A stretch of DNA of 64,000 nt from Halorubrum sp. GN11_10-6_MGM. Lineage in GTDB: Archaea > Halobacteriota > Halobacteria > Halobacteriales > Haloferacaceae. Positions 119 through 56,856 of this stretch are shown here, piece by piece. The translations under genes were made by a program, and so were the position numbers. Position 1 is the stretch's first letter. Each line of letters begins with the position of its first letter. The stretch is taken from assembly GCF_005435165.1 (NCBI RefSeq), contig NZ_SGUC01000002.1, positions 1 through 64,000 on the forward strand. The letters run 5' to 3'. The notes beneath the pieces were generated by a model. That model did not search any database, was not told the origin of the DNA, and saw only the letters and a list, made by a program, of their open reading frames with translations.

Positions 119-144
119 CTATCACTATCGGCGTCTCGTGATGA

Positions 145-395
145 CGAGAGAGCGAAGCTCTCTCGAACCACGCTCCTCGCTCGCGTTGCTCGCTGCGGTG
201 CTTACAGCGCCTCTGACCGCCTCGCGACCGCCCCTTCGAGTCCCACCCACCCCGCACAGTACCTCACGCCTCCCCAGCCTCGGCGGACGGCCCGGCGCGG
301 CTCCGCTCGCGCCGGACCGCCGCCTCCCTCGCGGGCCCCTCGCGGCCGCCCTCGGCGGCCGCCCGGCGGCGCGCCGTCGGCATGTTATACAACTA
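145..395 (-). repeat. Dispersed structured intergenic element, copy A (3' part truncated)
   Basis: Read on the minus strand, this starts with a TATA-like TTGTATAAC and continues through CGAGGGAG, a long imperfect stem, GAGGCTGGGGAGGCGTGAGG and GGGACTCGAAGGGGC, all shared with the copies at 5.4, 12.4, 28.7, 35.1 and 56.5 kb. The third stem and the CTGGGGCTT box are missing. In their place is a short perfect hairpin (CGAGAGAGC at 145-153 with GCTCTCTCG at 157-165). The element lies directly downstream of the inositol-monophosphatase-like gene in the same orientation. It fills the whole 119-402 gap; the short ORFs in it are compositional. Confidence 0.75.
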
Positions 396-5369: not shown

Positions 5370-5575
5370 GTACGAATGATGCCAATGCGGTGGCGCGCGC
5401 CTGCGAGCGGCCGACAGGCCGCGAGTAGCGAGAAACCTTGGGTCTCTCGCTGGAGTCGGGCGCGCGGAGGACGACCGGAGGGAGTCCGAAGGCCGCGCCC
5501 GACGAGGCTGGGGAGGCGCGAGGTGCGGGGCCGGGCGGGACTCGAAGGGGCAGGGCTTCGGCGGTGGTCGTGTCG
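5370..5575 (+). repeat. Dispersed structured intergenic element, copy B (third stem deleted)
   Basis: This copy contains ATGCGGTGGCGCG, GAGGGAG, GAGGCTGGGGAGGCG and GGGACTCGAAGGGGCAG in the order of the other copies. The second stem closes perfectly (GTCGGGCGCG at 5455-5464 with CGCGCCCGAC at 5494-5503). GGGGCAG is joined straight to GGCTTCGGCGGTG, so the third stem has been removed precisely between its two boxes. It occupies the 5303-5657 gap between divergent priS and the 48-residue gene. A 155-codon ORF across it is an artefact except for its last 48 codons. Confidence 0.75.
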
Positions 5576-12440: not shown

Positions 12441-12863
12441 CATTTATAAATGGCCGAGCGGTGCGGTGGCGTGTGCCGACGAGCGCCCGCAGGGCGCGAG
12501 TCGCACGCGCGAGGGAGTCGCTGGCGGCGCCAGCCGCCAGCGACGAGGCTGGGGAGGCGTGAGGCGCGGTCGCGGTGCGTTCCCGCGAGCGAAGCGAGCG
12601 GGAGCACGGAAGTCGCAGCCCGCGCAGCGAAGCGAGCAGGACCGTCTTCCGGAGGGGCGGGACTCGAAGGGGCAGTCGCCGGCGGCTTCGCCGCCGGCTG
12701 CCCGTGGCGCGTCGCGCCACGCTGCCGCGAGGGCGAAGCACGACGACGCAAGGACCGCAGGAGCGAGCGAAGCGAGTGACGAGGACCGCAGCGAGTCGCG
12801 CGAGCCGTCGCGGCTGGGGCTTTGGCGGTGTTCGCCGCCGATCCGCGAGCGGCCATTTATAAA
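12441..12863 (+). repeat. Dispersed structured intergenic element, copy C (longest, with perfect inverted ends)
   Basis: This is the most complete copy. TTTATAAATGGCC at 12443-12455 is repeated as its exact reverse complement at 12851-12863. Inside are GCGGTGGCG, stem 1 (12469-12508, ending in GCACGCGCGAGGGAG), stem 2 (12-bp perfect arms 12517-12528 and 12533-12544), GAGGCTGGGGAGGCGTGAGG, GGGACTCGAAGGGGCAG, then extra hairpins in place of the simple third stem, and GGCTGGGGCTTTGGCGG with a final GGCGG/CCGCC hairpin. It fills the whole gap between the convergent pibD and dnaG genes. No plausible protein is encoded. Confidence 0.85.
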
Positions 12864-28630: not shown

Positions 28631-28643
28631 GGCTCGGTCGTTT

Positions 28644-28701
28644 ATTTATAAATGGCTTCGGACGGATCGACGAGGAGCGCCGCCGAAGCCCCAATCGCTC
28701 G
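28644..28701 (-). repeat. Fragment of the dispersed element (right end only)
   Basis: On the minus strand this reads GGGGCTTCGGCGG, a short spacer, and then CCATTTATAAATA. These are the terminal CTGGGGCTT box and TATA-like end of the element, without the rest. It directly abuts complete copy D in the same orientation, giving a tandem duplicated right end. Confidence 0.6.
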
Positions 28702-28995
28702 CTTATAACTAGCTGCTTCTGAATCGGCGGTGTTCACTGCCGAAGCCCCAGTCGCGAAGCAGGCGCACGCTCGCTGTGCGCCTCACTCGGTCGCTCACTG
28801 CGTTCGCTCCCTCGTTGCGGTGCTTGCTTCGCCTGCGCCTGCTTCGCGACTGCCCCTTCGAGTCCCCCCGCACAGCACCGCAACCGCACCTCACGCCTCC
28901 CCAGCCTCGCGGTTCGCGCTCTCCGAGCGCTCACCGCTCCCTCGCGCGTGCTGCTCGGCCGCGAGGCGGCCTCGCAGGCACGCGCCACCGCTTGC
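28702..28995 (-). repeat. Dispersed structured intergenic element, copy D
   Basis: Minus-strand copy with all boxes: GGTGGCGCGTGCCTGCGAG, GCACGCGCGAGGGAG, stem 2 (GCGGT...ACCGC plus GCGCTC...GAGCGC), GAGGCTGGGGAGGCGTGAGG, GGACTCGAAGGGGCAG and CTGGGGCTTCGGC. Stem 3 is a perfect 18-bp pairing of 28750-28767 with 28834-28851. The right end has TTATAA (28703-28708); the left end lacks the TATA-like palindrome. It lies between the convergent SelW-like and copper ATPase genes. The long ORFs crossing it are shadows. Confidence 0.85.
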
Positions 28996-35129: not shown

Positions 35130-35440
35130 CATTTATAAATCGCTAAGCCACACGGACCGCTCCGAAGCCCCAGCCGCGAGGCGGGCGCACGCTCGGAGCG
35201 GTCCTCGCTCGTTCGCTCCGCTCACTCGCTGCGGTCCTGCCTTCGCCTGCGCCCGCCTCGCGACTGCCCCTTCGAGTCCCACCCCGCACCGCGACCGCAC
35301 CTCACCCCTCCCCAGCCTCGTCGGTGGTCCTCCGCTTCGCTCCGGACCACCGACTCCCTCGCGCGTGCTCCTCGCGGCCGCCGAGGGCGGCCGCTCGCAG
35401 GCACGCGCCGCCGCACGTGGTGGTTTCGCTTATTAAACGA
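35130..35440 (-). repeat. Dispersed structured intergenic element, copy E
   Basis: Minus-strand copy with all boxes. Both ends are A/T motifs (TTATTAAA at 35430-35437 and the palindrome-like CATTTATAAAT at 35130-35140). Stem 2 arms 35320-35330 and 35344-35354 pair over 11 bases with a sequence unrelated to stem 2 of copy C. Stem 3 pairs 35172-35189 with 35248-35265 (17 Watson-Crick pairs and one G-U). It occupies nearly all of the 35040-35490 gap between thioredoxin and SufU-like genes, both on the plus strand. Confidence 0.85.
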
Positions 35441-37089: not shown

Positions 37090-37235
37090 CTCAAACGTTA
37101 CTACAGACTGAGTAAACATATTACTACCGGAAAACGTTAGAAGTATGTCTGTTCTTGGCGTTGGTTGCGGCGGGACCGGCTTCGCGACGCCGACCTGCGT
37201 CGTTTATCACCCATCGCCGGCGGGTGTGCGGGCAA

Positions 37236-37272
37236 CACCTCCGAAGCCTCAGCCCCTCGGCCGGACGACGAT
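37236..37272 (-). repeat. Fragment related to the dispersed element
   Basis: On the minus strand this carries CGAGGGGCTGAGGCTTCGG, a variant of the element's terminal box. It closely resembles the fragment beside copy E (35091-35127) over about 36 bases. It lies between two minus-strand genes (phosphohexomutase end and small gene start); the rest of 37120-37332 shows no gene. Confidence 0.45.
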
Positions 37273-37332
37273 GTCGCTATCGGCCGGCTGACTCCAGCGA
37301 GGGGCGAAGGTCCACGGAAAAACGAACCGTCG

Positions 37333-56543: not shown

Positions 56544-56856
56544 CTTACAAATGACGATGCGGTGGCGCGTGCCTCCGGGTGGCCGCCGCAGGCGGCTACG
56601 AGGAGCACGCGCGAGGGACGCCGCGAGCGACCGCAGGAGCGAGCGGCGAGGCTGGGGAGGCGTGAGGTTGCGGTTGCGGTGCTGTGGGGGGGGATTCAAA
56701 GGGGCAGCCGCGAGGCGGACGCAGGCGAAGCAAGGACCACAGGGCGGGAGCGAGTGAAACGAGCGACCAACCGAGAACCGCAGCGAGCGTGCGCCCGCCT
56801 CGCGGCTGGGGCTTTGGCGGTGTTCGCCGCCAATCTGTTCGCAGCTATTTATAAAC
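56544..56856 (+). repeat. Dispersed structured intergenic element, copy F
   Basis: Plus-strand copy with TTACAAATGACG at the left end and TATTTATAAAC (56846-56856) at the right. Boxes in order: GATGCGGTGGCGCGTGCC, GCACGCGCGAGGGA, GAGGCTGGGGAGGCGTGAGG, GGATTCAAAGGGGCAG (a divergent version of GACTCGAAGGGGCAG) and GGCTGGGGCTTTGGCGGTG. Stem 3 pairs 56706-56723 with 56790-56807 (17 of 18). It lies between convergent TrmB-like and mptA genes. Confidence 0.85.

Follow-up and report, generated by a model that had tools for sequence, protein, structure and literature searches.

The region at 28702-28995 of the window (the whole 64,000-nucleotide stretch of a Halorubrum contig analysed here) contains stems whose sequence changes between copies of a repeat while their pairing is kept. 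This raises the questions of whether selection acts on the structure and, if so, which molecule carries the fold. Our analysis showed that the finding first made at this locus, in a sequence-only reading, is correct in what was seen and larger than was recognised.

Structure of the element and selection on its fold

A covariance model (R1) was built from an alignment of 41 Halorubrum copies (A1). Upon search with R1, six copies (A-F) were found in the window, three complete (D, E, and F) and three damaged (A, B, and C). Copy D, which occupies the locus, lies 28 nt after a copA-like gene on the same strand. It is read on the minus strand from 28991 to 28740, and its tail runs to about 28640. 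The parts of copy D and the other copies, in window coordinates, are as follows:

28740..28991, minus strand: copy D, complete main element (R1 match of 214 bits, E 3.5e-51, model positions 1-247)
28944..28985, minus strand: P1, a stem with an internal tandem G-A step; outer pairs GCGCGTG..CACGCGC, inner pairs covarying
28909..28937, minus strand: P2, a hairpin whose stem sequence changes freely (arm-swap test)
28889..28908, minus strand: conserved box GAGGCTGGGGAGGCGTGAGG
28853..28871, minus strand: G tracts and the 5' side of the outer helix P3a (CGAAG)
28834..28852, minus strand: 5' arm of P3, the "stem 3" of the sequence-only reading
28770..28825, minus strand: P4, a ladder in which 2-bp steps and tandem G-A steps alternate, the cap usually a GNA loop
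28749..28767, minus strand: 3' arm of P3
28740..28749, minus strand: GGGGCTTCGG, the fourth G tract and the 3' side of P3a
28635..28739, minus strand: tail of copy D, a second CTTCGG unit and TTATAA/TTTATAA boxes
139..289, minus strand: copy A, truncated (72.6 bits)
5387..5561, plus strand: copy B, stem P3 missing (57.6 bits)
12463..12825, plus strand: copy C, expanded and rearranged (36.7 bits)
35162..35414, minus strand: copy E, complete (199.4 bits)
56559..56817, plus strand: copy F, complete (185.8 bits)

Tandem tail units of about 58-75 nt, which start with CTGGGGCTTCGG and contain TTTATAA, trail many Halorubrum copies (for example L013 1745-1900 and window 28640-28740). Only a tail remnant is present at 37130-37330 of the window, where L075 has a whole copy.

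Stem 3 had been described as 18 bp long in D, E, and F. In D the arm CAGTCGCGAAGCAGGCGCA pairs flawlessly with TGCGCCTGCTTCGCGACTG over 19 bp, and E likewise has 19 bp with one wobble, while F contains one A.C mismatch and so is not a perfect stem of 18-19 bp. The two double changes from A-T to G-C between D and E are present, as is the G-U pair noted in E, a single T.G wobble that exists on the minus strand only and reads A.C on the plus strand. The sequence also contains every stem 2 arm that was quoted (for B, C, and E), with the complement following in each case.

The minus strand of copy D folds at -153.8 kcal/mol, compared with a shuffled mean of -134.6 (z -4.0, 0/200) and with -132.1 kcal/mol for the plus strand. 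In A1, 97.4% of the cells pair (84.5% in shuffled alignments and 27-45% in slid controls), double-change cells number 227 vs 73 shuffled, and 23 of the 42 pairs are changed on both sides. Among 39 matches from other genera the corresponding values are 98.4% pairing, 311 vs 82.5 double changes, and 33 of 42 pairs doubly changed; this cross-genus alignment was fitted to R1 and therefore leans towards the model. When arms were swapped between copies, every helix became weaker except P1a, which is nearly invariant, and in P2 the average pairing fell from 7.1 contiguous bp to 3.2. A pseudoknot between UGCGGUGC and GCACCGCA was rejected, as linkers taken from other copies matched at least as well as the copy's own complement (491/500).

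Under a strict phylogenetic null, in which substitutions were re-placed along the tree, 10 of about 30,000 column pairs reached E<0.05, and seven of these are pairs of the fold. Significant covariation is thus present, although modest by this test, and the count is probably an underestimate because MAFFT misaligns P2 and upper P3.

Read on the minus strand, 64 cells are G-U but only 7 are A-C. In P4, four G-A dinucleotides occur in all 41 copies and the intervening 2-bp steps covary; in P1 the G-A columns 20-21 are invariant (41/41), and columns 47-48 hold at 40/41 and 38/41. The wobble bias, together with the invariant P4 steps and their covarying flanking pairs, indicates that the fold is on the minus strand.

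The same numbers bear on the possibility that structure is not selected at all and that the pairing comes from template-switch palindrome correction and gene conversion between paralogous copies in polyploid cells. Such a process would fit the great length of the perfect stems and their many transversion-type double changes, as well as the mosaic modules described below and the flipped P3 loops, which are DNA-level events. However, palindrome correction is hard to invoke for P4, since it would remove the very G-A mismatches that are kept, and it predicts no strand bias. Recent gene conversion as the sole cause cannot explain 33 of 42 pairs doubly changed across genera. We consider this explanation improbable overall, and for P1 and P4 it is already largely refuted.

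The evidence on P3 is less decisive, as correction or conversion could contribute to its perfection. In 54 copies P3 has 19 contiguous pairs, its paired stem comes in 51 distinct versions, and 50 one-step neighbours differ in both arms. The loop orientation of P3 is kept in 107 of 109 scorable copies. Separately, P3 loops inverted relative to other copies were seen in L316, L116:4881, and L128:7396, suggesting that recombination took place across the P3 arms.

The claim that structure is under selection, be it of RNA or of single-stranded DNA, therefore stands in a strand-specific and class-wide form, while its strict-null support is modest and the copies are mosaic. Selection on structure holds for P1 and P4 and probably for P3. 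Some of the covariation is common to copies through descent or conversion, given mosaic copies with exchanged modules.

Distribution, genomic context and turnover

The conserved box has 122 matches in the own Halorubrum genome, compared with 13 for a reversed control, and R1 has 133. R1 matched 241 of 292 Halobacteria genomes, covering 64 of 77 genera. Of 295 genomes sampled from the phylum, 46 matched, all of them inside the order, and none of the 242 genomes from the rest of the phylum did. Sixteen genomes of other genera contained 6-97 matches each, and many of these are a short form with P3 and P4 only, which ends in GGGACTGAAAGGGGC and GGGGCTTTC. The short form is 110-125 nt and the long form about 240-260 nt. 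In most genomes examined closely the copy number is roughly 30-130.

Plasmids of Halorussus, Halobaculum, Salinigranum, Natrinema, and others carry the element, mostly unannotated. No element was found in phage records, and four exact box matches were found in viral contigs. Upon search against Rfam, the 64-kb window had no match at the gathering threshold, and no sub-threshold match (E up to 10) lay inside 28740-28991. Our searches of the literature and with motif strings found no description of the repeat. The family is a non-coding, intergenic, Halobacteria-wide repeat that has apparently gone undescribed so far.

None of the 96 copies checked overlapped a gene call. The neighbouring genes of 91 copies were convergent in 28 cases, divergent in 19, and codirectional in 44, and orientation is near random. 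An element that acts in cis on transcription or RNA processing at the ends of genes, such as a terminator or a 3' UTR structure, would agree with the position of copy D behind the copA-like gene and with some enrichment between convergent genes (28/91, compared with 47/211 background intergenes). But the gene to the left shares the strand of the copy in only 45 of the 91 cases, and 19 copies lie between divergent genes; with this insufficient orientation bias the 3'-UTR or terminator reading was rejected, and we regard it as very unlikely. A double-stranded DNA binding site or boundary element, for which the intergenic position, the many copies, and the very conserved box would speak, leaves the covarying arms and the strand-specific G-A mismatches unexplained, and its probability is similarly slight.

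Among own-genome copies the similarities of P1, P2, P3, and P4 are almost uncorrelated (Mantel r -0.06 to 0.11), which indicates that the copies are mosaics. That genome also contains many fragmentary or decayed copies besides the complete ones. Copy D sits in the copZ-copA intergene. This site is empty in 11 species, with only 2-80 bp between the genes, and holds the element in six, all in the same orientation; the remaining species have unrelated sequence instead. About half of the copies at the six filled sites are decayed or rearranged: two have degraded severely and contain inserted hairpin modules, and in one the P3 loop is flipped. L303, L299, L306, L308, and others have about 700 bp of unrelated sequence at the site, probably another gene. 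G103 has no copy E, and the copy E of G169 is without P3. Because intergenic DNA diverges too fast between the species compared, none of them yielded a clean empty site from which the element's ends or a target duplication could be read.

In other genera (L262, L263, L266, L269, and L274), elements also occur as neighbouring inverted pairs with about 20-125 bp between them. TTTATAA boxes flank some copies. We also observed another small repeat, composed of two hairpins (GTCGCCGGCG..CGCCGGCTGCCAGAG..CTCGCTGGAGTCG) inserted inside some copies (L051, L057, L018, L044, and the D site in L298 and L302); it has its own GNA loops on the opposite strand. Many contigs of the own assembly, G000, end within the element (e.g. 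C41:18-35, C116:24-41, C125:19-36, and C179:19-36), which suggests that the family probably causes assembly fragmentation. Taken together, the family behaves as a mobile, decaying element would, with active lineages keeping the fold.

Nature of the folded strand

The reading we favour is a non-autonomous mobile element whose fold is kept for propagation and whose folded species is single-stranded DNA. This may well be the case, though we stop a little short of calling it probable. Copies would arise by copying into intergenic DNA, swap hairpin modules among themselves, and then decay, and the fold would be retained since propagation needs it. The least certain steps are that the folded strand would be DNA exposed in replication or excision, and that it would be recognised by an enzyme encoded elsewhere, presumably not the Y1 (IS605/RAYT) transposase. 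Transposition itself is an inference, as the observed sites gave no clean insertion point. The analysis turned up no mobilising enzyme. The G-U preference and the tandem G-A steps are equally expected of RNA, and the long near-perfect stems could partly stem from palindrome correction in replication.

The other reading is a family of structured non-coding RNAs. Here the minus-strand sequence would be transcribed and would act as a folded RNA, and the copies would be amplified genes or RNA-dependent mobile elements. The strand-specific fold, the large excess of G-U wobbles over A-C, and the deep cross-genus covariation are all consistent with it, as are the tandem G-A steps, a usual feature of internal loops in RNA. 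On the other hand, the copies are often decayed, their orientation relative to neighbouring genes is near random, and a promoter-like box is missing at the spacing needed for a transcript that starts at P1: the TATA-like boxes are concentrated around -15 and -48 relative to the 5' end of the element, not near -30, and an own promoter just upstream of P1 was therefore rejected. The apex loops also speak for DNA. About 71 of 107 P4 apexes are GNA triloops, P2 apexes are likewise mostly GNA triloops, and of 45 tetraloops across P1, P2, and P4, 31 are GNNA but only three GNRA, which is thus avoided. The third tetraloop position prefers a pyrimidine, which neither the RNA nor the DNA reading explains. 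In DNA mini-hairpins, GNA and GNNA loops on G-C pairs are reported to confer extraordinary stability, with a melting temperature of 78 C for GCGAAGC (PMC4686876). An RNA family is a serious but somewhat doubtful candidate. Together, the loop types and the absence of a promoter where one would be expected tip the balance slightly towards single-stranded DNA rather than RNA.

The G tracts follow a pattern (GGG-Y-GGG, GGGG before P3, and GGGG after P3) that 101 of the 116 Halorubrum copies display, compared with 15% of shuffled linkers, and that is also present in 28 of 39 copies of other genera; copy D reads GGGGGG in place of GGG-Y-GGG. Haloferax volcanii is reported to have more than 5,800 potential quadruplex sequences, many of which fold in vitro (PMC12873603). 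From their conservation, the four tracts might form a G-quadruplex. The broader idea, a lineage-wide class of archaeal genetic elements with a fold suited to molar potassium (a G-A ladder, GNA caps, and four basal G tracts that possibly form a quadruplex) and with a single strand recognised by a haloarchaeal enzyme, is speculative and rather unlikely.

About four fifths of the Halobacteria genomes sampled contain the repeat, frequently with dozens of copies each, and Rfam has no entry for it. Within this class it is a probable cause of assembly breaks and of genome plasticity, and it points to a class-wide mobilising or binding protein. With more than 100 natural variants of one fold in a single genome, it offers an unusually direct test of stem evolution, and these variants could show whether selection sees folded single strands, RNA or DNA.

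Comparison with known systems

Integron attC sites are recognised as a folded single strand, with stems that covary and a sequence that is largely free. The present element is similar in all three respects, the folded strand, the covarying stems, and the largely free sequence; we know of no conserved box or G-A ladder described for attC. HEARO is a multi-copy structured RNA that is possibly mobile. The present element resembles RNAs of this type as a repeated structured element, possibly mobile, but it has no Rfam match and no associated ORF was noticed.

Bacterial REP/REPIN-RAYT systems likewise have many intergenic hairpin repeats per genome, often with inverted neighbours and with the hairpin under selection (PMC3116915, PMC3733652). 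REPs are defined there as palindromes of 20-40 bp with a GTAG or CGTC tag (PMC3733652). In contrast, the present elements are 110-260 nt, their alignments have no terminal GTAG or CGTC tag, and their fold is branched with a G-A ladder. RAYT-type mobilisation was rejected, as the Y1 transposase (PF01797) is missing in eight of 24 carrier genomes, including the copy-rich G135 (97 copies), G026 (93), and G258 (84); a Y1 transposase is therefore unlikely as the driver.

R1 searched over 18 TnpB loci gave two fragments of about 16 bits only, and a TnpB guide RNA or an IS605 end was rejected as a reading. The ends also differ from those of a MITE, which has terminal inverted repeats matching a transposon: alignments of the ends revealed no terminal inverted repeats, GCGGTGGCGCG and GGGGCTTYGG not being inverted copies of each other. 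At about 250 nt the element is too short for a transposase. The SMRs of Haloquadratum are also short mobile haloarchaeal repeats without a transposase, but they are about 80-110 bp long, have terminal inverted repeats, and often target PATEs or IS605 (PMC3119063). The PATEs of Haloquadratum walsbyi resemble IS605 ends, which the present element does not, but like it they are haloarchaeal, non-coding, and transposase-free, without terminal inverted repeats, palindromic, and present in many copies (PMC3119063).
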